38,883 nucleotides of DNA. Source: Deltaproteobacteria bacterium (GTDB lineage Bacteria > Desulfobacterota > Dissulfuribacteria > Dissulfuribacterales > Dissulfuribacteraceae). How positions within the stretch are numbered: the stretch's first letter is position 1; the number at the start of each line of letters is the position of its first letter. Both the position numbers and the translations under genes were made by a program. The stretch lies in assembly GCA_015494155.1 (NCBI GenBank), contig WGBU01000182.1, forward strand, positions 1-38,883, written 5' to 3'. The notes under the pieces were generated by a model. It ran no database searches, was not told the DNA's origin, and saw only the letters and a program-made list of their open reading frames with translations. Below, piece by piece: positions 4,863 through 30,702 of the stretch.

Positions 4863-5654
4863 ATGAAATCCAATATTATTTCTGTTCTTTTTTTGGTCTT
4901 TGGGTTAATCATCTTTTTTCTTAGTTTTTCTACAGCAGAGACCCGTGGCAGGCTCAAACGTACACTTCCGCCATATGAATACGGGACCATAGTCATGAAT
5001 CAGTTCAGCGAGAAAAAGGGGCTAGAGCCTGTAATTTTCAGACATTGGTCCCATCGCAATAGATATACATGCAGGCTCTGCCACATAGATTTAGGATTTG
5101 CCATGGTACGAGGAGGCACTCCTGTCCAGGAAGAGGATAACCGCAACGGTCAATATTGTGGGGCCTGCCACAATGGAAAGGAGGCCTTTTCAGTCAAGGA
5201 CAGGGGCAACTGTAAGAGATGCCACTCACCATATCCAGTTGGACTGGATCAGGAGGCCAAAAGGCTATTTTATAAGGTGACCAAGACGTTGCCCAGAGGC
5301 AGATTTGGAAACGGTGTGGATTGGACTAAGGCAGAAGAAATGGGCAAGATAAAACTAATTGACACCCTCGACTGGTACTCTTTCAAACGTCCAAAGATGA
5401 AGAGAGACAAGGGAGAGATCGAGATGGTTCCCAAGGTAAAAGGCCTGCCCGACATCATCTTCTCGCATAAAAAACATGCTGCATGGAATGGGTGTGAAAT
5501 CTGTCATCCCGACATATTTGCCATGAAGAAAGGTGGCACAAGATTCAAGATGATAGACAACTTCAATGGACTATACTGTGGTGCATGTCATGGCAAGGTG
5601 GCATTTCCATTAAAGGACTGCGGTCTCTGCCATGCAAAGCCAGTGAGTCTATGA
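4863..5654 (+). CDS. Six-heme c-type cytochrome (two c7-type triheme units)
   Basis: The 263-residue exported protein has an N-terminal hydrophobic segment (about 5-25) ending in SFSTAE, which fits a Sec signal or membrane anchor. It carries six CXXCH heme motifs at C70, C99, C117, C211, C239 and C253. They fall into two triheme units with the same plan: F-x-H-x-x-H, CXXCH, a GGT segment, YCGACH and a final CXXCH. This matches the c7/triheme 'nanowire' repeat known from metal- and sulfur-reducing deltaproteobacteria. The extra His residues in FRHWSH and FSHKKH are likely axial ligands. The role would be periplasmic electron transfer. It shares the whole layout with the next gene, so the two look like a tandem duplication, and both lie upstream of the octaheme gene. 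Confidence 0.88.
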   Translation: MKSNIISVLFLVFGLIIFFLSFSTAETRGRLKRTLPPYEYGTIVMNQFSEKKGLEPVIFRHWSHRNRYTCRLCHIDLGFAMVRGGTPVQEEDNRNGQYCGACHNGKEAFSVKDRGNCKRCHSPYPVGLDQEAKRLFYKVTKTLPRGRFGNGVDWTKAEEMGKIKLIDTLDWYSFKRPKMKRDKGEIEMVPKVKGLPDIIFSHKKHAAWNGCEICHPDIFAMKKGGTRFKMIDNFNGLYCGACHGKVAFPLKDCGLCHAKPVSL

Positions 5655-5688
5655 TCAGGTTCATTACATCTCCCTCGTGAGAATGTGA

Positions 5689-6579
5689 ATGAGTATTTTA
5701 AAGACACTCATCATTCTCTCTTTACTCTTGATTAGTGGATGCTCCAACCTCACCTCAAGGTATAACCCGCAAGGTGAAAGAGACCAGCCACATCTCTCTG
5801 AAAATCGCTTTGTCGTAATACACAAAGAATACAAATCTCCTCCTATTTCAAGGTATAGGCTCAATCAACTTTTAAATATGGCCATGTACTATGGGCCATA
5901 TTATCTCTATGGCATCGAGCCCATAAGGAGCATAAATTTTACCTCTGAGCTCCCCCCTGCAACATTTCCCCACTGGGCCCATCGAATACGCTACAAATGT
6001 AATGTGTGTCACCTGGAGCTCGGTTTCAGTTTGTTCACTGGGGGCACCCTAATTACCAGGGGAGACAACCTGGCAGGGCGATACTGTGGAAGATGCCACA
6101 ATGGAGAGACATCCTTCACTGTAAAGACCACTGGAGAAAGGACATGCGAAAGATGCCATATCAGGGACCTTGGGCTATTGAAAGGAGATTTTGATACACT
6201 GATGGCAAAGATGCCCAGGCGAAAGTATGGGGACACCGTTGACTGGAATCTAGCCCTTACAAAGGGTCTCATAGCCCCTGTAGATACCATACAAGGCATT
6301 GAGTATCCCTCGTTACCCCTACCAGAAAGGCTCAAAAAGCCATTTGCATGGTATACGCGCAACAGAAGGGTAACGGTGGTATTTTCCCATGTGAAACATG
6401 TCCAATGGATGGATTGTGCCATCTGCCATCCAGAAATCTTCGAGATCAAACGCGCAGGCACTATGGAGTTTGACAAACAGAAGATGCTCTATGGCATGTT
6501 TTGTGGACGGTGCCACATGCATACTGCCTTCCCAATGAATAACTGTTCCAGGTGTCATCCTGGGGTCCTAGACAGATAG
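5689..6579 (+). CDS. Six-heme c-type cytochrome lipoprotein
   Basis: The 296-residue protein has a lipoprotein signal: a hydrophobic N-terminus then LISGC with the lipidation Cys at 18. Six CXXCH motifs occur at C104, C133, C153, C243, C272 and C286. They are arranged as two triheme c7-like units, paralogous to the preceding protein and with the same DW linker motif between units. A 60-residue Tyr-rich stretch before the first heme is longer than in its neighbour. The lipid anchor would fix it to a membrane facing the periplasm or outside. A Ser follows the lipidated Cys, which in gammaproteobacterial rules favours the outer membrane. It starts 34 bases after the first cytochrome, so the two are probably co-transcribed. 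The electron partner is not known. Confidence 0.88.
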   Translation: MSILKTLIILSLLLISGCSNLTSRYNPQGERDQPHLSENRFVVIHKEYKSPPISRYRLNQLLNMAMYYGPYYLYGIEPIRSINFTSELPPATFPHWAHRIRYKCNVCHLELGFSLFTGGTLITRGDNLAGRYCGRCHNGETSFTVKTTGERTCERCHIRDLGLLKGDFDTLMAKMPRRKYGDTVDWNLALTKGLIAPVDTIQGIEYPSLPLPERLKKPFAWYTRNRRVTVVFSHVKHVQWMDCAICHPEIFEIKRAGTMEFDKQKMLYGMFCGRCHMHTAFPMNNCSRCHPGVLDR

Positions 6580-6659
6580 TCTCAGGAGGTTACGCTGAAA
6601 CCTAAAATAGTTAAATTGGCAATTTTTTCTGGACAGTAATAAAAAAATAGGGTATGAAG

Positions 6660-6689
6660 TATAATCAATAAAAATAATTATAATTATTT
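6660..6689 (+). promoter_or_regulatory. -10 box and 18-bp perfect palindrome upstream of the octaheme gene
   Basis: A perfect TATAAT (6660-6665) stands about 38 bases before the octaheme cytochrome ATG, with no good -35 at the right distance. From 6672 to 6689 lies AAATAATTATAATTATTT, which equals its own reverse complement over all 18 bases. It would cover the transcription start or early leader, directly before the AAAGGAGG ribosome site. This placement fits a repressor operator. The regulator is not identifiable. AT-only composition makes chance palindromes more likely. Confidence 0.4.
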
Positions 6690-6702
6690 AAAGGAGGACG
6701 GG

Positions 6703-8013
6703 ATGAAGAGTTTAAATCTTTTACTATTGTTTTTCTTTACCATCTCTATCTGTCTGTTTGGTGGTCGGTCATGGGCCGAGGAGGAGTGCATCACCTGCCA
6801 CAAGAAGGTCACCCCAGGACAGGTCAAGGACTGGAGCGTGAGTAAACACGCTGAAAACGACATCACATGTTCGGTCTGCCATGGAGAGGGGCATACAAGT
6901 GCAAAAGACATAGATAAAGTGGTTTTACCAGATGAGCACAAGTGTGCCGAGTGTCATGAGGAACAGTTCAACCAATTTAAACGTGGGAAGCATCAATTTG
7001 GATGGACATCCATGAATGCCCTCCCCATAACCCACGTGGAACCAGATGAACTCATGGAGGGGGGCCGTGGATGTGGCGGTTGTCACAATATGGGCATAAA
7101 GACTGAGGCCCAGAAAAAAGAGCAGAGGGAAAAGGGCTACCGTTATCAAAACAATTCGTGCGACGAGTGCCATACGAGGCACAGCTTTTCCAAAAAAGAG
7201 GCCTTGGACCCAAGGGCGTGTCAGCAGTGCCACATGGGTTATGATCACCCCCAATGGGAGATGTGGAGCAGCTCAAAACATGGTTCTAGATGGTTTGCAA
7301 GACTGGCTGGTAACCTTCCAAAAGATGCCCAGGCCCCCAAATGCCAGGATTGTCACATGCCTGGTGGCGATCATGAGAACAGGACTGCATGGGGCTTTTT
7401 AGGGGTACGCCTTCCCCTTCCAGAAGACCCTCAATGGGCGAAGGACAGGGTCATGATCCTAAAGGCACTCGGTGTATTAAATCCTGAGACTGGGAAACCC
7501 ACTGCACGTCTCGAGGCAGTAAAGGCAGTGAGACTTGCCCGCCTCACCCAGGAAGAGTGGCAGAAAGAGCGTGACAGGATGCTAGATATCTGTTCTCGCT
7601 GCCATTCCCGCAAATATGCCAAGACCCAACTGGATATGGGTGATGAGATGATGCGGAAGGCAGATCGCCTCATGGCACAGGCCATTCAAATCGTAGCAGA
7701 TCTATACAAAGACGGCATACTAAAAAAGAGGCCCAATCAACCATTTGCATTCCCAGACTTCCTCTACTTTATGAGGACCGATTTCTCAGCCGCAGACCCA
7801 ACCAGTTACAAGACAATGGCCAATGGGCTAACCCACATAGAGCAGGTCCTCTTTGAGATGTACATGAAGCACAGGATGCGCACCTATCAGGGCTTCTTCC
7901 ATATGAATCCTGACTATGCATACTGGTATGGATGGGCCATGATGACCAAAGACCTTGGTGAGATCAAAGAATTGGCAGAGCAGATGAGGGCCGCTGCCAA
8001 GGTTGAAAAATAG
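6703..8013 (+). CDS. Octaheme c-type cytochrome, hydroxylamine oxidoreductase (HAO) family
   Basis: The 436-residue exported protein has a signal peptide ending near SWA (25). Eight CXXCH motifs occur at C29, C56, C81, C124, C153, C173, C214 and C297, followed by an alpha-helical C-terminal region. Heme count, spacing and the long helical tail match the HAO-like octaheme family. In that family the fourth heme (here GRGCGGCHN) is the active site, and oxidative members cross-link it to a Tyr of the neighbouring subunit. Members without the cross-link reduce nitrite or hydroxylamine. The tail has a Tyr-rich motif (NPDYAYWYGW, 402-411), so the cross-link state cannot be settled by eye. AAAGGAGG gives a strong ribosome site. 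Two six-heme cytochromes precede it, and no NapC/CycX-type quinol dehydrogenase is in the window. Confidence 0.85.
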   Translation: MKSLNLLLLFFFTISICLFGGRSWAEEECITCHKKVTPGQVKDWSVSKHAENDITCSVCHGEGHTSAKDIDKVVLPDEHKCAECHEEQFNQFKRGKHQFGWTSMNALPITHVEPDELMEGGRGCGGCHNMGIKTEAQKKEQREKGYRYQNNSCDECHTRHSFSKKEALDPRACQQCHMGYDHPQWEMWSSSKHGSRWFARLAGNLPKDAQAPKCQDCHMPGGDHENRTAWGFLGVRLPLPEDPQWAKDRVMILKALGVLNPETGKPTARLEAVKAVRLARLTQEEWQKERDRMLDICSRCHSRKYAKTQLDMGDEMMRKADRLMAQAIQIVADLYKDGILKKRPNQPFAFPDFLYFMRTDFSAADPTSYKTMANGLTHIEQVLFEMYMKHRMRTYQGFFHMNPDYAYWYGWAMMTKDLGEIKELAEQMRAAAKVEK

Positions 8014-8026
8014 AGCACACCTGTGA

Positions 8027-8054
8027 AGGGCGGGTACCTTTTAGTACCTGCCCT
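8027..8054 (+). terminator. Hairpin after the octaheme gene
   Basis: An 11-bp stem (8027-8037 with 8044-8054, one G-U pair) and a 6-base loop lie 14 bases after the stop. The following sequence is only pyrimidine-rich (ACCTCTTCT), not a T-run. It may be a weak terminator or an mRNA 3'-end stabiliser. Confidence 0.5.
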
Positions 8055-8198
8055 ACCTCTTCTATGGACAATCGATCTCCATCCTAATATTGCGATCATA
8101 TCATCTCAAGATTTAGACCAACCCTTCCTTTCTCAAATATTTTATCTTTTCTAAAATGATTTTATTTAAATTTTTTCTATAGATTTTTCAAAAAAATT

Positions 8199-8225
8199 TA
8201 AGTCAATCGCCCATTCCTCCGATCT
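8199..8225 (+). promoter_or_regulatory. Possible sigma-28 (flagellar) promoter
   Basis: TAAG (8199-8202), 15 bases, then TCCGATCT (8218-8225) resembles the FliA consensus TAAA-N15-GCCGATAA in its core TAA and CCGAT. The match outside the core is poor. It lies 27 bases before the start of a gene whose product resembles a flagellar rod C-terminus, which raises its credibility. Confidence 0.35.
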
Positions 8226-8251
8226 ATATAACAAAGAGGAGTAAGATAACG

Positions 8252-8524
8252 ATGCCTATTCTACCGGCGATCAACCAATCAATAAGGGCCATTCAAGAGA
8301 TAACAAATGGGGCACCTGATAGCCAGAGGCGGCCTCCTCGTGGTCAACCATTACAAGAGGCATCTACAGGGGGTAAAAGGCCATCAGATGTCAAGGATAC
8401 AAAACTACCCTCTGAACGAGAAATTGTAGAGCAGATAAGGGACAAGGAAATCGTAAAGGCGAATGCCAAGGTCATACAGACTGGAGACGAGATCATAGGA
8501 ACAATCTTGGATATAAAGGTTTAG
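8252..8524 (+). CDS. Small protein resembling a flagellar rod/hook C-terminal segment
   Basis: The 90-residue soluble protein has AGAGGAG ten bases before its ATG. Residues about 1-20 form a short amphipathic segment and 20-50 are Pro/Gly/charged and probably disordered. The last 35 residues form a predicted helix ending in ANAKVIQTGDEIIGTILDIKV-like sequence, with the final residue Val 90. That ending resembles the Flg_bbr_C helix of FlgG/FlgE/FlgC (consensus A-N-x-x-V-I-x-T-x-D-x-M-L). Stand-alone small proteins with this ending occur in deltaproteobacteria; their role is unclear. No flagellar gene neighbours it, but a sigma-28-like promoter precedes it. The homology is a pattern judgement. 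Confidence 0.6.
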   Translation: MPILPAINQSIRAIQEITNGAPDSQRRPPRGQPLQEASTGGKRPSDVKDTKLPSEREIVEQIRDKEIVKANAKVIQTGDEIIGTILDIKV

Positions 8525-8554
8525 CCCCACTCCCTCCTCCTTCCCTCCTCCACA

Positions 8555-8591
8555 AAAAGGCCGACTCACCAAGATGGAGAGTCGGCCTTTT
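8555..8591 (+). terminator. Strong intrinsic terminator, probably bidirectional
   Basis: A perfect 13-bp stem, AAAAGGCCGACTC (8555-8567) with its complement (8579-8591), has an 11-base loop and runs of A and T at its two feet. It sits between the convergent small rod-like gene and the symporter gene. It can stop transcription from both sides. Confidence 0.85.
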
Positions 8592-8617
8592 CCTACCTCA
8601 GTTAGCAGTATATGTGA

Positions 8618-10393
8618 CTAATGGTCCACTGCTGCCCCAGCACCTCTCGGGGTCCTTATGGAATCCACCAGGTCCTGTATCTCCTTGGGTGGGGCCTTGG
8701 TGATACTGGAGACCACTATGGTGACTATAAAGTTAATCAACATTCCAACGACACCTATACCTTCAGCACTAATGCCCAGGAACCACGGCTTCATGTGGAG
8801 GAACTTGATCTGGATGATGTAAATGGCGGTAAACACTATCCCTGCGATCATACCGCAGATGGCACCTTCCCTGTTTGCCCTCTTTGAAAATATACCCAAT
8901 ATGATGATTGGGAAGAAGGAGGAGGCCGCTAGACCAAAGGCAAAGGCCACCACCTGCGCCACGAAGCCTGGGGGATTGATTCCAAAATAACCTGCAATAC
9001 ACACCGCCACTGCTATCATTACACGCCCCACCAGGAGCCTCTGTTTCTCAGAGGCCTTTCTGTTGATCATACGATAGTAAAGATCGTGAGAGATGGATGA
9101 TGCAATGACTAGGAGCAGCCCAGATGCAGTAGAAAGTGCGGCTGCAAGGCCTCCTGCTGCCACCAAGGCAATGACCCATGCGGGTAGATTTGCGATTTCT
9201 GGGTTGGCGAGCACCATTATATCACGGTCGATATAGAGCTCATTGGGACTAGAGGTCAGTTCATTTTTAACCAGACGCTGTCCAAGAGGCCCTGTTTCTC
9301 CAGTAAATACTGGCTTACCCTTGAAGGGCTTGCCTGCCCTGTATTGAATGATCCCATCATTGTTTTTGTCTACCCATGCTATGAGACCTGTCTTCTCCCA
9401 GTTTTTGAACCAACTTGGCGCCTCTGTGTAGGGTTTGTCGTTCAGTGTATCTATCATGTTGTACCTGGCGAATGCAGCCACTGCAGGGGCAGTGGTGTAT
9501 AGGATTGCAATAAAGAGCAGGGCGTAGCCAGCACTAAGACGGGCTGCCTTCACACTAGGCACAGTGTAGAACCTGATGATCACGTGGGGAAGCCCTGCAG
9601 TACCCACCATGAGGGCCAGGGTGATACAAAAGACATCGAGCATAGACTTTTGCCCTGGTCCGAACGCCTGTGTGTATTCGGCAAAGCCCAGGTCTCTATT
9701 TAGCTGGTCAAGCACATCGAGAAGATATTTCCCTGCGTGTTGCCCAGTGACCACGTGGCTCCCAAGGCCGATTTGGGGGATTGGGGTGCCAGTGATCTTC
9801 ATGGCAATAGCAATGGCTGGGATAAGATATGCAATGATCAACACCGTGTACTGGGCCACCTGGGTCCAGGTGATGCCCTTCATTCCACCCAGTCCAGCAT
9901 AGAGAAACACGATTATCATACCAATGATAACACCTGTATTGACATCCACCTCTAGAAAACGACTAAACACAATTCCCACACCGCGCATCTGTCCTGCAAC
10001 ATATGTGAGTGAGACAAAGATGGCACAGACCAGTGCTACGAACCTGGCTGCGTCTGAATAGTAGCGGTCACCTACGAAGTCTGGCACCGTATATTTCCCA
10101 AATTTCCTGAGATATGGTGCGAGCAGCAAGGCCAAAAGGACATAACCACCGGTCCACCCCATGAGGTATATAGACCCGGTATAGCCCAAAAAGGAAATCA
10201 AACCTGCCATGGAAATGAACGATGCAGCGCTCATCCAGTCTGCAGCAGTGGCCATACCATTGGCAATGGGAGGTACACCTCCACCTGCAACGTAGAATCC
10301 CTTGGTATCTCTAACCCTAGATGCCCACGCGATAAATATATACAGACCAAAAGTGAGCCCAACCATAATATAAGTCCAGGCCAGAATCGACAT
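8618..10393 (-). CDS. Sodium:solute symporter large subunit (VC_2705 type, ActP-related)
   Basis: The 591-residue integral membrane protein has about 13 hydrophobic segments and the SSS fold. The N-terminal family signature GGGVPPIANGMATAADWMSAASF is visible at about 37-59, and the mid-region holds TAGLPHVIIRFYTV. Large subunits of this type work with a small DUF4212 subunit, here encoded just upstream. They are annotated as monocarboxylate (for example acetate) importers driven by Na+. An extracytoplasmic loop (about 310-405) contains VDKNNDGII (341-349), which looks like an EF-hand calcium loop (D342, N344, D346). Such a loop seems usual for this subfamily but its role is not known to me. 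GGAGGG precedes the ATG. Acetate is a reasonable substrate given acs in the window, but unproven. Confidence 0.88.
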   Translation of the reverse strand: MSILAWTYIMVGLTFGLYIFIAWASRVRDTKGFYVAGGGVPPIANGMATAADWMSAASFISMAGLISFLGYTGSIYLMGWTGGYVLLALLLAPYLRKFGKYTVPDFVGDRYYSDAARFVALVCAIFVSLTYVAGQMRGVGIVFSRFLEVDVNTGVIIGMIIVFLYAGLGGMKGITWTQVAQYTVLIIAYLIPAIAIAMKITGTPIPQIGLGSHVVTGQHAGKYLLDVLDQLNRDLGFAEYTQAFGPGQKSMLDVFCITLALMVGTAGLPHVIIRFYTVPSVKAARLSAGYALLFIAILYTTAPAVAAFARYNMIDTLNDKPYTEAPSWFKNWEKTGLIAWVDKNNDGIIQYRAGKPFKGKPVFTGETGPLGQRLVKNELTSSPNELYIDRDIMVLANPEIANLPAWVIALVAAGGLAAALSTASGLLLVIASSISHDLYYRMINRKASEKQRLLVGRVMIAVAVCIAGYFGINPPGFVAQVVAFAFGLAASSFFPIIILGIFSKRANREGAICGMIAGIVFTAIYIIQIKFLHMKPWFLGISAEGIGVVGMLINFIVTIVVSSITKAPPKEIQDLVDSIRTPRGAGAAVDH

Positions 10394-11090: not shown

Positions 11091-14000
11091 CTACAACCTC
11101 TCCTCATGGATGACCTTTTGGGTCGGAGTCACAGAGTTCCCTAAAAAGTCGCCTATCCATCCCTGAAAGATCATGTGTCCGCCATGTCTCCCTCCCCCTG
11201 GGCCAAGCTCGACAATGTAGTCGCTTGCCACTACTACGTCCAAGTTGTGTTCTACTATGACAATAGTATTTCCAAGGTCGCGAAGTCGCCTGAGGTAATC
11301 CATGAGCCGTTCCACATCCTTCATGTGGAGCCCTGTTGTTGGCTCGTCCAAGAGATAAACCACCTGCTCTGGGCGCCTTCCCATGAGCTCCCTTGCCAGC
11401 TTGAGGCGCTGTGCCTCTCCACCAGATAGGTCCGGACTCCTTTGACCGAGCTCGAGGTATCCCAGTCCAAGCTCTTTCAACAGACCAAGAGCGCGCTTTA
11501 ACCGTGGGTGGGCGCTAAAAAAAGAAAGGGCTTCCTCCACCGTCATGGACAGGCAGTCTGAGATATTTTTCCCCTGCCACTTCACCTGTAGCACCTCGTC
11601 TTTAAACCTCCTACCATTACACTCTGGACAACGGATATAGACTGGAGGGAGAAAACCCAATTTGACCTCCTCTATCCCCTGCCCTTTACAGGCAGGACAC
11701 CTCCCACCATCGGTATTAAAGGAAAAGGTAGACTTTGAGTATCCCCTGAATCTTGCAAGCTGCGTTTTGGAAAAAAGATCCCTAAGATGGTCAAATAACT
11801 TGAGATAAGTAAGCACACAGGAGCGTGGCGTCCTGCCAATGGGGCTTGAATCCACAAGCCGCACCCCTTTGAACGGACCTGATAGGAAAAACCCATCTAC
11901 TCCTACCCAACGTGGTGCATCCTGGCAATGCCTCTCAAAGAGGTTGAGATTTTCATAGATGAGGTCCAAGAGGGTGCTCTTACCTGCGCCAGAGACACCG
12001 ACAATAGAGGTAATGGCCCCAATGGGAAGGGCCACATCGTCTCCCTTAAGGTTGTGCATCCCTATGCCCTTAAGTCGCAGCCAGCCCCTGGCCTCCACTG
12101 AACTTGGGCGTTTAAGGCCCTTCTTGGCCACCTTCGCCTTTGACCTCTCTCTTAGGGCGATGCCCGTAAGAGAATGAGCCACTCCTTCTATCTCCTTGGG
12201 GGTCCCTTCAAAGACCACCTCACCTCCCCTGCTTCCTCCACCTGGGCCAAGGTCTATGAGCCAATCGGCAGAGCGAATGGTCTCTTCATCGTGCTCAACC
12301 ACAATAACCGAGTTACCCTCCTCTTTGAGCCTCCTGAGCACCTGGATGAGGCGCCTATTGTCCAGGGGATGTAGTCCAATGGTGGGTTCGTCCAACACAA
12401 TGGTAAGCCCTGTGAGTCCAGAGCCAATCTGTGCTGCAAGCCTTATCCGCTGTGCCTCACCACCAGAAAGCGTGTCGCCAGAGCGAGAGAGTGAGAGGTA
12501 GCCAAGCCCTACATCTGAGAGGAAAGAGAGGCGAGATATGGCCTCTTCCAAAAGGGGTCTTGCCACCCCCCTTAATCGCTCGTGCCACGGCTCTGTCTCC
12601 TGCCACGTCTTGAGTAACTCTATTGCCTCTGAAACCTCTAGGGACATAAGCTCTCCTATGTCCCTTCCATCTATTACCCAGGAAAGGGCATCCCTGGAGA
12701 GTCTCGTCCCTCCACACTCCTCGCACGCCCTCCCCCTTTGTCTCGGGTCCCTCCCTGTACCTCCACACCTGCTGCATCTCCCGGTCTCTGTATTAAAGGA
12801 AAAGAGGAGTGGATCTGGATCCTTTACGCCTATGCCACACCTCACGCAACTTCGCCTCTCGCTAAAGTATTCCTCTTTGTCACCATGGATGGGCCTTACA
12901 CCAACCACACCACCTCCCAGGAAGATGGCCCGATGAAAAGGCCCTTTTAGACCAGGACTTGAGACACTATATGGCCCAAAGACCCAGGAGATGGAATGGG
13001 GGCTGTAGCGGTCCAGTTCTGGAAGGTCTGTCACAGGATAGTAGCTACCGTCCACCATAACGAGACCCGCCCCTGCCGGCCTTGCCTGATCGAGTACATT
13101 CTTTAAAAATCCCTTTCTCATGACCACCCGAGGGGAGATGAGATAGACCTCCTGGCCTGAGAACCTGGCCAGGATCTCTTCCAATATGGCCTCCTTGGTG
13201 GACTCCTCTAATATTGTCCCACACTTAGGGCACCTGGCCCTGGCCACCTTTGAATAGAGGAGCCTCAGATAGTGGGCCACCTCAGTGAGAGTTGCCACGG
13301 TGGACATGGGTCCACTTGCGGCCTTTCTCTGTTTTATTGCGACAGATGGGCTGAGCCCCACGATCTCGTCCACGTCTGGGCGCTCGTACAACTTTATAAA
13401 CTGGCGCATATACGAGGGGAGGCACTCGATGTACCTCCGCTCTCCTTCTGCATGTATTATGTCAAAGGCAAGGGTGGACTTCCCAGAGCCAGACGGCCCT
13501 GTTATCACCACAAACCTCCCCCTTGGGATGGAGAGGTCTATGGACTTTAGGTTGTGATGGCGCGCACCCCTTATTTCTATCTCGTATCCTGTATCGACTT
13601 TTTGGTCCTTTGTAACAGGCGTGCCTCGGTCCACCTGCGCATTAACGAGATCACTATCTCTGCGCAGGAATTGAGAGGTCATGGAACTCGTACTCTCCAA
13701 AAGTTCATCTGGTGTGCCTTGAAAGATCAGTTTTCCGCCCCTATCTCCCCCAAAGGGTCCAAGCTCTATGATCCAATGGGCATTTACTATGAACCTTGGA
13801 TTGTGTTCCACCACCACGGCTGTGGCATTTCCCCGATTAACAAGCTCATGACATGCCCCCACAATGAGCTCCGCCTCTTGCGGGTGGAGGGATCGGGTGG
13901 GCTCGTCCAAGATGTAAAGGGTGTGTTGCCCTGGTGGTGATGAAAATGCCTTGACGAGTCTAAGGCGCTGCGCCTCTCCGCCTGAAAGCGTGTTGAGCCT

Positions 14001-16415
14001 CTGGTCCAAGGTGAGGTGTCCAAGGCCTAGCTTCCTTAAAAGGGCAAGCCGTTCCCTTACCCGCTCCTCTCCCTTAAAAAACCCATAGGCCTCGTCCACT
14101 GTCATGGCCAGGCACTGATCAAATCGAACACCCCTTAAAGAGATGGCACATATCTCAGGCCTTAGCCGCGCCCCCTTGCAAACAGGACAAGGGAGTTCAA
14201 CATCGGGCAAAAATTGCATCTCTAAGACCTCGACACCCAGCCCTTTACACCAGGGACAACGCCCCCTGGGCGAATTGAATGAAAAATTACCCTCCTTAAG
14301 CCCCAGGGCCTTTGCCTCTGGGAGCGAGGCAAAGATTGGCCTTATCGCCTCCAATATCCCACTATAGGTGGCCACAGTGGCCCGTGGGGTCCTAGTGAGC
14401 TTTGACTGGTCCACCAGCACCACACATTCTATTGCCTCATGGCCTTCAATAGAGTGGAAGGCACCTGGTGCCTCAACAGGTTCACCGAGCTGGCGCTTCA
14501 CTGCCCTATAAAGGACCTCTTCCACCAGGCTGGACTTCCCAGATCCAGAGACCCCTGTCACCACTGTAATCGCATGGAGCGGGAACCTCACTGTAATATC
14601 CTTTAGATTGTTACACCTGACACCCCTTAACTCCAGGACCTTGGAGAACGCTCCAAACCGCTTCTCCATGTGGCGTACACCCCTCGCCTTGCCCTGGAGT
14701 TCCTGATATTCCCTCAATATTTCAGGCTGCGGGGGGCCTGAATAGACCAACTCGCCCCCTGACTTGCCAGCACCTGGACCGAGCTTTAAGAGTTGATCAC
14801 TAGAGGCGATTATGTATGGGTCGTGGGTTACAGTGAGGATTGTATTTCCCTTCTTGAGCAGCCCCTCCATTACTGTTAAGACCCCTGCCACGTCTGAGGG
14901 GTGCAGCCCTCTGGTGGGCTCTTCCAGGCAGTACAATGTGTCTTTAAGGGCATTTCCCAGGGCACGGGCGAGAGCAACCCTCAACATCTCGCCACCAGAA
15001 AGCGATCTAGACTGCCTATCAAGCCCAAGGTAACCCACACCTGCCTTCACAAGCGTCTCCAACCGATCCTTCAATTCCCTATAGAGGGTCTCTGTGGCGC
15101 GGTCACGAGAAAAGAAGGGGCGATTCTCCCTTAAAAAGTCCAGGGCCTCCTCAATGGACATGGAGTAGAATTCGCCAATGTTCTTCCCCAACAGTTTGTA
15201 TGAGAGGGCCTCGCGACTAAAACGTAGCCCATTACAGGCAGGGCACCTCGTGTATGCCCTATATCGTGCAAGTAGTATCCTTATGTGGGCCTTATACCTA
15301 TACTGCTCCAGCTCTTCAAAGATGGCCTCGATGCCGGGCCATGGATGGTGGCCATGTTTTACTACTTCCTTTGCCTCTTCTGGGAGATCTAGCCAAGGTG
15401 TGTCAGGGTCTATACCCATCTCTTCCAGGACTCCAATCAATAGGTCCTTTTCATATTCCCACGACTCAAGAGGCAATACCGCCCCACCTTTTATACTTCT
15501 AGAAGGGTCTGGGACCACTAGGTCCCAGTCTATACCAGTGACCCTCCCAAACCCCTGACACTCCTTACATGCACCTACAGGGGTATTGAACGAAAAGAGC
15601 GCCAAGGTAGGCCTGGGAAACTCCTGGTCACACTGTGGACACCGCCTCCCCCTTATAAATGAAAATGGACCAACAAGATCGCTGTAGTCTGGGCCGGTGA
15701 GAAAATAGGCAGTTACACGACCACCACCCTCCAGGAAACCCAATTCAAGGGCATCATGAATACGCTCGCCTAGGGCGGTGAATTGAGTATTGGGGCCAAG
15801 TCTCACCCTGTCCATGAGGACCAGGGCCCTTTTCTCACCGCCAAGACTGGTCAACTGGTCTATCCTCACCACCTGGTTTTCCACAAATAGGCGGGTATAT
15901 CCCTTGGATTCAAGCTCCCTTATCCTCTTTTCATCTATAGACGTCTCTACCCCTACGAGAAATAGCCCTTCACCATAGGTGGTGAGCAGCCCCCTTATGA
16001 TCTCAAGTACATCTTCTGCCTTGTGTTCTTTAATCGGTATGTGGCACCTAGGGCAAAAGGGTTCCCCTAATCTCAGGTAAAGGTGTCTAACCGAATATGT
16101 GAGTTCACCAAGGGTCGCCACAGTGGACCTCGCATTCCTCACAGGATTTCCCCCTGTGACTGCGATGGACGCAGGGAGGCCAGAGATCAACCCTGCCTCT
16201 GGCCTTGGGCGTCTCTCTAGGAATTGTCTTACGTAGGGTGAAAAGGTCTCTATGAAGCGCCTTTCAGACTCTGAATGGATGGTGTCGAAGACCAGAGTGG
16301 ATTTTCCAGCCCCGGACCTGCCGATTACAGATATGGCCCTATAGAGAGGGATATCTAGATCGATCCCCTTTAAATTGTGTTCTCGTAGTCCTCGGAGAAT
16401 GATCTTTTTTGCCAT
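11091..16415 (-). CDS. uvrA: Double-length excinuclease ABC subunit A (tandem UvrA, four ABC modules)
   Basis: The product is about 1774 residues; normal UvrA is about 940. Copy 1 spans about 1-930 and copy 2 about 940-1774. Walker A motifs lie at 32, 621, 973 and 1473 (GRSGAGKS, GVSGSGKS, GPSGSGKS, GVSGAGKS). Signature LSGGE motifs lie at 472, 810, 1316 and 1663. Each copy has its C-terminal zinc finger (C720/723/743/746 and C1573/1576/1596/1599). UvrA finds DNA lesions and loads UvrB in nucleotide excision repair. Copy 1 has a full-size putative UvrB-binding insert (about 130-245); in copy 2 that region is shorter and diverged. Module 1 is altered: LSGGEML replaces LSGGExQ and Walker B reads LEE instead of LDE (E498). 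Chlamydiae also have double-length UvrA. A TTG two codons upstream is an alternative start; neither start has a clear ribosome site. Confidence 0.92.
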   Translation of the reverse strand: MAKKIILRGLREHNLKGIDLDIPLYRAISVIGRSGAGKSTLVFDTIHSESERRFIETFSPYVRQFLERRPRPEAGLISGLPASIAVTGGNPVRNARSTVATLGELTYSVRHLYLRLGEPFCPRCHIPIKEHKAEDVLEIIRGLLTTYGEGLFLVGVETSIDEKRIRELESKGYTRLFVENQVVRIDQLTSLGGEKRALVLMDRVRLGPNTQFTALGERIHDALELGFLEGGGRVTAYFLTGPDYSDLVGPFSFIRGRRCPQCDQEFPRPTLALFSFNTPVGACKECQGFGRVTGIDWDLVVPDPSRSIKGGAVLPLESWEYEKDLLIGVLEEMGIDPDTPWLDLPEEAKEVVKHGHHPWPGIEAIFEELEQYRYKAHIRILLARYRAYTRCPACNGLRFSREALSYKLLGKNIGEFYSMSIEEALDFLRENRPFFSRDRATETLYRELKDRLETLVKAGVGYLGLDRQSRSLSGGEMLRVALARALGNALKDTLYCLEEPTRGLHPSDVAGVLTVMEGLLKKGNTILTVTHDPYIIASSDQLLKLGPGAGKSGGELVYSGPPQPEILREYQELQGKARGVRHMEKRFGAFSKVLELRGVRCNNLKDITVRFPLHAITVVTGVSGSGKSSLVEEVLYRAVKRQLGEPVEAPGAFHSIEGHEAIECVVLVDQSKLTRTPRATVATYSGILEAIRPIFASLPEAKALGLKEGNFSFNSPRGRCPWCKGLGVEVLEMQFLPDVELPCPVCKGARLRPEICAISLRGVRFDQCLAMTVDEAYGFFKGEERVRERLALLRKLGLGHLTLDQRLNTLSGGEAQRLRLVKAFSSPPGQHTLYILDEPTRSLHPQEAELIVGACHELVNRGNATAVVVEHNPRFIVNAHWIIELGPFGGDRGGKLIFQGTPDELLESTSSMTSQFLRRDSDLVNAQVDRGTPVTKDQKVDTGYEIEIRGARHHNLKSIDLSIPRGRFVVITGPSGSGKSTLAFDIIHAEGERRYIECLPSYMRQFIKLYERPDVDEIVGLSPSVAIKQRKAASGPMSTVATLTEVAHYLRLLYSKVARARCPKCGTILEESTKEAILEEILARFSGQEVYLISPRVVMRKGFLKNVLDQARPAGAGLVMVDGSYYPVTDLPELDRYSPHSISWVFGPYSVSSPGLKGPFHRAIFLGGGVVGVRPIHGDKEEYFSERRSCVRCGIGVKDPDPLLFSFNTETGRCSRCGGTGRDPRQRGRACEECGGTRLSRDALSWVIDGRDIGELMSLEVSEAIELLKTWQETEPWHERLRGVARPLLEEAISRLSFLSDVGLGYLSLSRSGDTLSGGEAQRIRLAAQIGSGLTGLTIVLDEPTIGLHPLDNRRLIQVLRRLKEEGNSVIVVEHDEETIRSADWLIDLGPGGGSRGGEVVFEGTPKEIEGVAHSLTGIALRERSKAKVAKKGLKRPSSVEARGWLRLKGIGMHNLKGDDVALPIGAITSIVGVSGAGKSTLLDLIYENLNLFERHCQDAPRWVGVDGFFLSGPFKGVRLVDSSPIGRTPRSCVLTYLKLFDHLRDLFSKTQLARFRGYSKSTFSFNTDGGRCPACKGQGIEEVKLGFLPPVYIRCPECNGRRFKDEVLQVKWQGKNISDCLSMTVEEALSFFSAHPRLKRALGLLKELGLGYLELGQRSPDLSGGEAQRLKLARELMGRRPEQVVYLLDEPTTGLHMKDVERLMDYLRRLRDLGNTIVIVEHNLDVVVASDYIVELGPGGGRHGGHMIFQGWIGDFLGNSVTPTQKVIHEERL

Positions 16416-16443
16416 GTCCAATGGATATTAAAGGGCATGTTTT

Positions 16444-27465: not shown

Positions 27466-30400
27466 TCATTGCCTTGGATAAAGGGGACACGCCCCCTTGA
27501 TACACTCTTTGTTTAGCCCAGACTGTGCACAGAGGATGCTTTCTCGTGCCACAAGGGGCCTATCCAGGAGCCCCCTTGAGATCCTTTCTGCCTCCTTTAG
27601 GGCGATGTACGACTCGCGCTGGCAGCACCTTGGGGCATCACGCTCGGCTATCTTCTGAAGCACCTCAGCCACGATACGATTTACACGGGCACGGGTCCTT
27701 GATGCCAGTGGCGTTGAGCCCAACAGTGCTGAGAAACCAACACCTACGCCCACTGCTGCCCCACAGGCCCCCATATCTCCACACGACCCACCAGGCATAC
27801 GCGCCCCCCTTTCAATGGCAAATAGGAGTGTCTCCTCTCGGACATCTCCACCAAGGTTCCTGTAGGTGGAAAGCATGATGCCTGGCACCATGGCATGGTG
27901 TTCTGGGCCATGGAGTGGAAAGCGCCTGTTTGCCCTTATGCGCTTCATAAGGGCGATCATGTCGGTTTCAGTGGTATTTAAACAAATTTTTCGTATGACC
28001 TCTAGTGGGTCTTCTATGTGGCAAAGGTCACAGCAGAAGTGGCCATTCTTGCACTTAGAGGAGGAAAGCTTAATCGTACCGCAAATAGAACACCTGAGCC
28101 TTTGCGGCCGATCCATATACACTATTGGGGCACCGCAGATGAGACAACCACTGGTCTCTTTTGGGCCTTTCCGCTCTAGTCTGGAGGACCCAGTGCGGCA
28201 TCCACACCCACTCACTGCCCCATCCTGGCCTAAAGTCTCTCCAGTGGTGGGCGAGACCCTTAGAAAGAGATCGCTTGGCAAGGCATCTGCCTTCTCCTCT
28301 TCCAAGTAGAAGATCTCACCCTTTGAGAAGGTGCGACCATCCTCTAATACGACCCTCTCTAAAGGCCCCTTTAGAATGAGCCCGATCCTTTTCTCACTCT
28401 TTTCTAGGTCTGCCCCTACCCTTGGCCTAAAGGCCTCGAAGGTGAGGCTGTAAAACATGTGTCCAGAAACCTCTTGATAGGGAAAACGCCTGATGACCCT
28501 TGAGCCCTCAAACCCAATGTCCTTCAACATGGCGAATAGGTAGGACTCTACCAAGGCACCGCCTAGGCACCCTCCTATGAGTTCCCTATCTGACCTGACC
28601 CAGGGCGGTGGCTCCTTGGGCGTCACTACGTCTGATATCACGATGCGGCCCCCTGGTCTAAGGGTCCGGAACGCCTCCTTCAAGACCCTTCGCTTGTTTT
28701 TGGTGAGGTTTATCACACAGTTGGAGATGATGCAGTGAAAAGATTCATCTCTCAAAGGAAGCCCTTCAAGATGTGCCTTTAAAAAGGCGATATTGTCATA
28801 TCCCATCTCCTCCACTAAAAGCCTCTTTCCAGAGGCGGCAAGGGCCAACATCTCGTCTGTCATGTCTATACCCACCACCATACCGTGTCTACCGACCTTC
28901 TTTGCACCAATGAGGCACTCCACCCCTGAACCACTCCCAAGGTCCAGTACCCACTCCCCTTCTCTCAACCTGGCATCCTCCACAGGGCTTCCACACCCAT
29001 AAGAGCGACTCACATTCTCCTTGGGCAAGAGGTCTATTCCGGCCATGGCGGAGAGTGTTGGATTTTTTATCGAATCATCAGTTGACTGGGCACGCCTGCC
29101 ATAAAACTCCCTTACAAGCCCCCTGCCATCCCTTGATCCAAGGGAAAGGAGGCAGTTGGAGTGGATGAAGTTCACCTCTTTTACGTGCCCACATCCGTCC
29201 ATTACATCTCCCATCTTGAGCCTCACCCCAAGGGGCTCAGGCGGCACAGGGAGGTCTGATGCCTCCAACTCAAGGAGGTGCCTCAACATCTCGAGATAAA
29301 AAGGCCTTTGGGGGTCCTCTGAGAGAAAAAGGCCCGCGCCTTCCTCCTTCGGCTTCAGGCAGTGGTCTGTGTCGCCCCCGCCAATAATGAACCTCCATGG
29401 GTCCTTTTTCATGGCTGGAGAGTCTAGGAGGCTCATACTCCTAATGGCCTTCAGTACCTTGGAATTCCTCCAGATCTCCAAGATCCCGGCACCATCGCCA
29501 CCAAGCCTACCAGAGAGGAAACCGCGTCTGTCCACCCTGGCCGGTGTTGGCCATACAGCGCCATCTGGACCAATGGTAAGAGATTCCCACCCACCATTTC
29601 CAAGGTCAAACCTGGTGCCAGGGGGGCTGAACAATTGAGACCTCAGCGCTCTTAAGTTGTCTATCTCAACCCCCAATTCATCTGATCTTTTCAAAAAACG
29701 GCTAAAGAGACTTAGGACATGGTGATCATGGCCTGGGGACATGCCACGGCCGCTACCCTCATCAAAGTGCCACATGAGGTGCATGTTTTTTACGCCCATG
29801 TGAACTATGGACTCAAGGGCCTCTAAAAGGCCTTTTATGGTCACGCTGTTCACTGTCATGGAGGCGGTGACACTAAACCCGGCCTTTAAGAGTGCACTTA
29901 CCCCTTGGGCCATCCTTTTAAATGCGCCCTTGCCCCTTATGCCATCGTGGATCTCCTCAGGCCCATCTATACTCACTTGAAAGTGGAGCCTCTCCCTAAA
30001 ATGCCCTGGCAGTGCCCCCACGAGATCATCCAAGAGGATGCCATTGGTTAGGATTGCCACTTCTAATCCATAGTCGTCTATACAGGTCTTCAAGAGTTGG
30101 AGGAGATCTGGGTACAAGAGGGGTTCACCACCAGTCAGACAGACGAGTTCAAGCCCCTGGCCCAGCGCATCTCTTATGACGCCACTTACTGTCTCCAGCG
30201 GAAGTACCCGCTTTCGCTGTCTCTCCCTAGAAAAGAGGCAATGGCTACAGGCGAGGTTACAGGCATCTAGTAGATGAAACCATAGCTCCTTTATCATTTC
30301 AGGCTCAAGTTGGCCCCTCCCCCTATAAGGTGGTAGGTCTGGTACGGTAATTGAGGCTAAGAGGTGTTGTGCCTCTAAGAGGGCCTCTTCTGCCCCCATG

Positions 30401-30564
30401 CCACACTCCTCCATGAGGACCTTCACCAGCCCATCTTTTTCTAGCCTCGTTAGATGCCCCAACACCCTGTCCCCTTCAGGTCCCACCATGAACCAGAATG
30501 GGACTTCTGGAAGGAGATATACACAATCAAGGCCCCTTGCAATCTCATGGGAGAACTCGTCCAT
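27466..30564 (-). CDS. Radical SAM / ArsM-like methyltransferase / DUF5714 triple fusion
   Basis: The 1032-residue cytoplasmic protein joins three modules. Residues about 90-480 are radical SAM, with the [4Fe-4S] cluster Cys in CNLACSHC (C102, C106, C109), the GGEP motif and SPASM-like Cys later. Residues about 485-720 are a Rossmann methyltransferase of the arsenite-methyltransferase type: GLY-rich VLDLGSGSG (539) and family Cys in SYGCGSP (C524), SNCVINL (C616) and GGCLGG (C666). Residues about 800-1032 are DUF5714, with CxxC pairs (807/810, 825/828), GGSCGDMGACGAA (C928, C934) and a CC pair (980/981). Separate proteins of these kinds co-occur in sulfate reducers (TrsS/TrsM-like). The substrate is unknown. 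I start at ATG 30564, preceded by GGAGG; GTG 30627 is the alternative (1053 residues). Confidence 0.85.
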   Translation of the reverse strand: MDEFSHEIARGLDCVYLLPEVPFWFMVGPEGDRVLGHLTRLEKDGLVKVLMEECGMGAEEALLEAQHLLASITVPDLPPYRGRGQLEPEMIKELWFHLLDACNLACSHCLFSRERQRKRVLPLETVSGVIRDALGQGLELVCLTGGEPLLYPDLLQLLKTCIDDYGLEVAILTNGILLDDLVGALPGHFRERLHFQVSIDGPEEIHDGIRGKGAFKRMAQGVSALLKAGFSVTASMTVNSVTIKGLLEALESIVHMGVKNMHLMWHFDEGSGRGMSPGHDHHVLSLFSRFLKRSDELGVEIDNLRALRSQLFSPPGTRFDLGNGGWESLTIGPDGAVWPTPARVDRRGFLSGRLGGDGAGILEIWRNSKVLKAIRSMSLLDSPAMKKDPWRFIIGGGDTDHCLKPKEEGAGLFLSEDPQRPFYLEMLRHLLELEASDLPVPPEPLGVRLKMGDVMDGCGHVKEVNFIHSNCLLSLGSRDGRGLVREFYGRRAQSTDDSIKNPTLSAMAGIDLLPKENVSRSYGCGSPVEDARLREGEWVLDLGSGSGVECLIGAKKVGRHGMVVGIDMTDEMLALAASGKRLLVEEMGYDNIAFLKAHLEGLPLRDESFHCIISNCVINLTKNKRRVLKEAFRTLRPGGRIVISDVVTPKEPPPWVRSDRELIGGCLGGALVESYLFAMLKDIGFEGSRVIRRFPYQEVSGHMFYSLTFEAFRPRVGADLEKSEKRIGLILKGPLERVVLEDGRTFSKGEIFYLEEEKADALPSDLFLRVSPTTGETLGQDGAVSGCGCRTGSSRLERKGPKETSGCLICGAPIVYMDRPQRLRCSICGTIKLSSSKCKNGHFCCDLCHIEDPLEVIRKICLNTTETDMIALMKRIRANRRFPLHGPEHHAMVPGIMLSTYRNLGGDVREETLLFAIERGARMPGGSCGDMGACGAAVGVGVGFSALLGSTPLASRTRARVNRIVAEVLQKIAERDAPRCCQRESYIALKEAERISRGLLDRPLVARESILCAQSGLNKECIKGACPLYPRQ

Positions 30565-30702
30565 CTTTCCTCCGTTAAAACTTGTGACTGTGCCCAGGCT
30601 TGGGAAGGTTACTATAGATTTTGCCACACCATGTGTCCAGTCTTCATAGGGGTTAGCAAGTTCACAATTTGTATCATTAGGATTTTGTGGTAGCCTTGGT
30701 CC

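Follow-up and report, generated by a model that had tools for sequence, protein, structure and literature searches.

What is the role of a protein in which a radical-SAM enzyme, an ArsM-like methyltransferase, and a DUF5714 domain are joined in one chain, and is the join genuine? A gene in the window (the whole 38,883-nucleotide stretch analyzed here, contig WGBU01000182.1 of a Deltaproteobacteria bacterium) raises this question. The first-pass annotation had read three modules with their key residues from the sequence, a reading borne out by the Pfam and NCBIfam matches and by the cysteine sets C102/C106/C109 and C524/C616/C666. We consider it somewhat probable that this one chain acts as an organoarsenical synthase, replacing the ArsM and ArsS pair in an arsenosugar-type pathway. 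An RRE-like N terminus, a SPASM remnant, a zinc-ribbon-type segment, the minus-strand orientation, and mutual exclusion with ArsS are features that go beyond the first-pass annotation. The features of the locus are as follows.

27466..30564, minus strand: complete fused gene, 1032 aa, ATG start; homologues with the same module order in about 80 genomes
30569..30573, minus strand: GGAGG ribosome-binding-type site, 4 bases upstream of the fusion ATG
30325..30549, minus strand: RRE-like small N-terminal domain, aa 6-80, from structural alignment to CteB and TigE
29725..30294, minus strand: radical-SAM core, aa 91-280, from the PF04055 match
30238..30261, minus strand: CxxxCxxC 4Fe-4S motif, C102/C106/C109, invariant in the 68-sequence alignment
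29440..29592, minus strand: degenerate SPASM-like segment lacking the cluster cysteines, aa 325-375; PF13186 below cutoff
28219..29214, minus strand: ArsM-type methyltransferase and its C-terminal domain, aa 451-782, from Pfam, NCBIfam, alignment, and model
28993..28995, minus strand: C524, equivalent by alignment to CmArsM C72, conserved in 80/80
28717..28719, minus strand: C616, equivalent by alignment to CmArsM C174, conserved in 80/80
28567..28569, minus strand: C666, equivalent by alignment to CmArsM C224, conserved in 80/80
28018..28146, minus strand: Cys4-type ribbon and CxnHxxCDxCH segment, aa 807-849, resembling a zinc or metal site, with invariant Cys
27478..27996, minus strand: DUF5714 domain, aa 857-1029, from the PF18978 match

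The open reading frame (ORF) runs from an ATG at 30564 to a stop at 27466 (21 residues longer if an alternative GTG start is used), and all modules lie in a single frame without stops. A join of separate genes by sequencing, which the first-pass annotation had named as a possible refutation, can be excluded because 79 of the 80 relatives that a scan of the genome collection matched across most of the chain carry the three modules in one stop-free ORF; an assembly artifact is ruled out by the same full-length relatives in about 80 other genomes. The fusion is confirmed. Its hosts are Desulfobulbaceae, Desulfocapsa, Desulfurivibrio, and other deltaproteobacterial metagenome-assembled genomes (MAGs), Sulfurospirillum, and single Myxococcales and Eisenbacteria MAGs. 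The 68 aligned sequences are 35 to 56% identical to the window protein, the closest being that of L116 (56%), from a genome of the same family in which the flanking genes also match those of the window (acetyl-CoA synthetase-, mnmA-, and mtaB-like). The chain has 33 cysteines; 23 cysteines are invariant across the 68 homologues, with C787 and C861 close to invariant. An AlphaFold model of the fusion is confident (pLDDT 88, pTM 0.75).

Departures from the single-ORF form are few. The 80th relative (L028, 8001-12049), which was not resolved as a single ORF, has a match that exceeds the usual length by about 1 kb and contains internal stops toward its 3' end, possibly a partial duplication or a disrupted copy. 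In L110 (genome G267; 6100-9142, minus strand), a radical SAM-ArsM part of 741 aa and DUF5714 occupy two overlapping frames and the ArsM C-terminal domain is missing; this may be a natural split, though draft-sequence error could explain the two frames. Where the two ORFs of L106 meet, the sequence is a run of N, so they give no evidence of a split, and a candidate selenocysteine variant in G057 was rejected, the reported TGA falling outside the ORF. No plasmid-borne full-length copy covering 80% of the query was found.

Pfam methyltransferase matches begin at residue 535 (Methyltransf_31, 92 bits). The arsenite methyltransferase model NF008823 matches residues 509 to 696 with 205.6 bits against a cutoff of 263, and the fused relatives scored against it also stay under the cutoff; because of this score we call the module ArsM-like and not a member of the family. 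Its second-best NCBIfam match is the arsinothricin ArsM model NF040538 (175.7 bits against a cutoff of 500). All three As(III)-binding cysteines of ArsM are present as C524, C616, and C666 in alignment with solved ArsM structures. The ArsM fold, including its C-terminal domain, is also found in the model, with Foldseek top matches to 5evj, 6cx6, and 8xt7 at about 1e-18; residues 503 to 774 superpose on CmArsM (4fr0) with a Z score of 27.5 and a root mean square deviation of 7.3. From its sequence, the module is predicted to methylate As(III) with SAM.

The radical-SAM core belongs to PF04055 (aa 100 to 246, 75.3 bits against a cutoff of 29.5). Model residues 6 to 438 superpose on the whole chain of CteB (5wgg_A; Z 29.8, 401 residues aligned, 3.6 Å), and residues 1 to 444 align with TigE (8vpo). 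The N-terminal domain, which has no Pfam match by sequence, is RRE-like by analogy with CteB. Sequence supports the SPASM assignment weakly (PF13186, 14.6 bits against a cutoff of 21.5), and no cysteine lies between residues 161 and 402, so the SPASM cluster cysteines are lost. As modeled, residues 1 to 444 resemble an RRE-like N terminus, with a radical-SAM core and then a SPASM-like tail behind it.

Assignment of this module to ArsS, TrsS, or another named NCBIfam family was rejected, every match being far under its cutoff. The best is to the Rv1681 family (94.5 bits against 380), and the same score is distant from the TrsS (NF045646) cutoff of 490. The ArsS model (TIGR04167) gives the window protein 45.4 bits over positions 2 to 158 only, against a cutoff of 300 over 303; it does not reach the top 25 NCBIfam matches of the window module, ranks 22nd (52 bits) for the Sulfurospirillum homologue, and gives no fusion more than about 62 bits. 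The radical-SAM module is therefore not ArsS-like, and its modeled architecture resembles that of SPASM maturases.

DUF5714 matches PF18978 over the full model (191.5 bits against a cutoff of 26.2). The Cys4-type ribbon ahead of it is common to stand-alone DUF5714 proteins, and its cysteines (C807/C810/C825/C828/C838/C845/C848) are invariant across homologues. A separate model of the ribbon and DUF5714 has a pLDDT of 90 and no match among solved structures (Foldseek E value of 1.1 at best, Z score of 3.6 at best); a new DUF5714 fold does not follow from this. The score to MbdU (NF045648) is 119.8 bits against a cutoff of 600; MbdU has two selenocysteines, and the fusion has cysteines at the conserved MbdU positions and no in-frame stop. 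Stand-alone DUF5714 genes adjoin ArsR-like regulators, named from sequence, in L151 and L160, and DUF5714 also occurs in a TrsS locus, which is consistent with metal or metalloid handling. We found no literature on DUF5714 or on a radical-SAM/ArsM/DUF5714 fusion among open-access papers.

Other DUF5714 genes were observed as well. The genome of the window encodes a second, stand-alone DUF5714 protein (L002, G000:C23, 1384-2064, minus strand; 262 bits to MbdU), with a cation-diffusion-facilitator-like gene as its neighbor; in L116, a similar gene is immediately adjacent to the fusion. In L155 (3567-8467), a DUF5714 gene sits between an AcsV-like corrinoid reactivator gene and a CobW-like gene, beside an MtaA-like methyltransferase gene.

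In the window, the fusion is a solitary gene, flanked by a nucleotidyltransferase-like gene that converges with it and an mnmA-like gene that diverges from it, and none of the genes linked to it in relatives is nearby. Elsewhere in the window, a 1776-aa ORF (11091-16421, minus strand) reads as two tandem-joined UvrA-like excinuclease subunits, and three adjacent multiheme cytochrome-like genes with many CxxCH motifs (4863-8013, plus strand) end with one that resembles an octaheme hydroxylamine-oxidoreductase-type protein. The locus in Sulfurospirillum is richer: a single ORF comprises TIGR04282 (169 bits, cutoff 134) and TIGR04283 (240 bits, cutoff 182), accompanied by rhodanese-like, TVP38/TMEM64, NF045663-like dicluster, and aquaporin genes and by an S-methyl-5-thioribose-kinase (MTR-kinase)-like gene (234.8 bits, under the cutoff of 275). 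The gene order in L111 is TIGR04283, TIGR04282, fusion, TVP38, and pyridine-nucleotide-disulfide oxidoreductase, and genes of the TIGR04282/83 type adjoin or lie near the fusion in L113, L114, and L119. Of 52 loci whose flanks are long enough, 20 have TVP38 within 1.5 kb of the fusion and 11 have TIGR04282 within 5 kb of it. The dicluster, rhodanese, and TVP38 neighbors are not arsenic specific; the MTR-kinase-like neighbor would be in keeping with a deoxy-ribosyl arsenical, a compound similar to methylthioribose. At L094 (6971-8777, minus strand) in the genome of the window, TIGR04283 is found near a HAD-like gene; in eight other genomes, relatives of this HAD-like gene (cluster c22) are some kilobases away from the fusion.

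TIGR04282 and TIGR04283 carry "arsenosugar biosynthesis" in their names by association, and we know of no direct assay of either. Co-occurrence with TIGR04283, as in an ArsS-type pathway, was found in both genome sets. In 50 fusion genomes, TIGR04283 exceeded its cutoff in 45 and ArsS in none. In 297 genomes of the phylum, the fusion is present in 23 (22 at E 1e-100, and G289 through its DUF5714); TIGR04283 accompanies it in 22/23, counted at E 1e-50 and so taking in G211, slightly under the curated cutoff, and ArsS in 0/23. TIGR04283 accompanies ArsS in 72/85 genomes of the same set. Because relatives share genes by descent, the count was repeated per family (95 in total, the highest family number seen). 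ArsS occurs in none of 14 fusion families versus 46 of the remaining 81 (p 4e-5). Among families lacking ArsS, TIGR04283 occurs in 13/14 with the fusion versus 6/35 without it (p 1e-6). A separate ArsM exceeds its cutoff in 1 of the 23 fusion genomes versus 82 of the 274 others. The genome of the window follows this pattern, with TIGR04283 on contig C129, TIGR04282 on contig C160, and no ArsS over the cutoff. The fusion and ArsS are thus mutually exclusive across the genomes tested. TIGR04283 is not exclusive to the arsenosugar-type pathway, since 29 genomes positive for it have neither ArsS nor the fusion. Together with the ArsM cysteine triad, the arsenosugar-type gene association supports the thiol-bound, metalloid-type substrate suggested by the first-pass annotation.

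Most simply, a SPASM-derived radical module, joined to ArsM, would have taken the place of ArsS by nonorthologous replacement. The ArsM module would bind trivalent arsenic through C524/C616/C666 and methylate it with SAM, and the radical-SAM module would use its C102/C106/C109 cluster to cleave a second SAM, attaching a SAM-derived carbon group to arsenic. ArsS adenosylates arsenic in oxo-arsenosugar biosynthesis (PMC12159101), and ArsL transfers an aminocarboxypropyl group (PMC8552651); for the fusion, the group would most likely be 5'-deoxyadenosyl, as with ArsS. The ribbon and DUF5714 may hold or pass on the metalloid via their conserved thiols, or keep it reduced, and the TIGR04282/TIGR04283 transferases would then process the arsenical product. 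Radical chemistry followed by methyl transfer, the order initially proposed, found no support: methylation comes first with ArsM/ArsS, whereas radical transfer does with ArsL/ArsM.

The main rival to the arsenic reading is Trs-like, non-arsenic chemistry. The fusion would then be a one-chain Trs-type system (TrsS, DVU_1556 methyltransferase, and a DUF5714/MbdU-like part) whose substrate is a non-arsenic thiol-bound metal, a selenium compound, or lipid-like. Related single proteins do occur side by side, as the first-pass annotation had stated: L153 and L154 place TrsS (545.6 bits, cutoff 490), DUF5714, a DVU_1553 coenzyme A ligase, and a DVU_1556-type methyltransferase together. L153 also encodes an NF045663 dicluster protein, like that beside the Sulfurospirillum fusion, and DUF5714 scores to MbdU, the "metal-binding double selenoprotein." However, the fused methyltransferase is closer to ArsM (205.6 bits) than to DVU_1556 (76.4 bits) and keeps the arsenic-site cysteines, TIGR04282/83 accompany the fusion, and the radical module reaches at most 94.5 bits with any NCBIfam model, far from the TrsS cutoff. 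We regard this explanation as unlikely.

A second alternative, retained because of the RRE-like domain, is that the fusion modifies peptides: this domain would bind a ribosomal precursor, the radical-SAM core would cross-link it, and the methyltransferase would finish it. The superposition of the N-terminal 438 residues on CteB and TigE, peptide-modifying enzymes with an N-terminal domain, speaks for it. The loss of the SPASM cluster cysteines and the immediate neighbors in L078 (from Sulfurospirillum diekertiae) and L111, TVP38 and transferase genes, argue against it, and inspection of the recurring families gave no convincing conserved small ORF near the fusion for a precursor peptide, those present looking like fragments or antisense of known genes. 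This makes a peptide maturase improbable. An ArsL/ArsM-like mode of action, with ArsL acting before ArsM as in Burkholderia (PMC8552651) and with NF040538 ranking second for the ArsM module, is equally improbable, given that the top 25 NCBIfam matches of the radical module include no ArsL model and that TIGR04282/83 indicate a sugar or nucleotide route.

Returning to the organoarsenical synthase, known bacterial C-As bond chemistry beyond methylation depends, to our knowledge, on radical-SAM enzymes that are separate proteins, ArsS and ArsL among them. A broader proposal, which we advance tentatively, is that sulfur-cycling anaerobes possess an ArsS-independent organoarsenical route, in which one three-part protein methylates arsenic and forms a C-As bond radically, with a radical module from the RRE/SPASM peptide-maturase lineage and with DUF5714 as a new arsenic (metalloid)-handling domain. 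If so, the fusion would mark organoarsenical producers among Desulfobulbales and Sulfurospirillum that are overlooked by ArsS searches, and DUF5714 would gain its first testable role. Cultivated hosts (Sulfurospirillum diekertiae, S. cavolei, S. arcachonense, and Desulfurivibrio) make this reading testable.

Compared with known systems, CteB, TigE, and SkfB share by fold the small N-terminal domain, the radical-SAM core, and the SPASM-type tail; the fusion differs in having lost the SPASM cysteines, in carrying ArsM, and in having no precursor peptide found. The TrsS/DVU_1556/DVU_1553 loci and MbdU likewise bring together a radical-SAM protein, a methyltransferase, a DUF5714-type protein, and a dicluster redox protein in one locus, but as separate genes, with a DVU_1556-type methyltransferase and with TrsS related to tetraether lipid synthase. 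ArsL and ArsM of arsinothricin biosynthesis (PMC8552651) are also a radical-SAM and ArsM pair forming C-As bonds, but they are encoded by separate genes, with an ArsQ permease and no DUF5714 described (PMC8552651). The ArsM and ArsS pathway (NF008823/TIGR04167) has the ArsM-type methyltransferase with its cysteine triad, a radical-SAM enzyme, a Cys-rich accessory segment, and TIGR04282/83 partners; unlike it, the fusion is a single chain, with a radical-SAM module of the SPASM/RRE type rather than the ArsS type and with DUF5714 in place of the Cys-rich ArsS C terminus.
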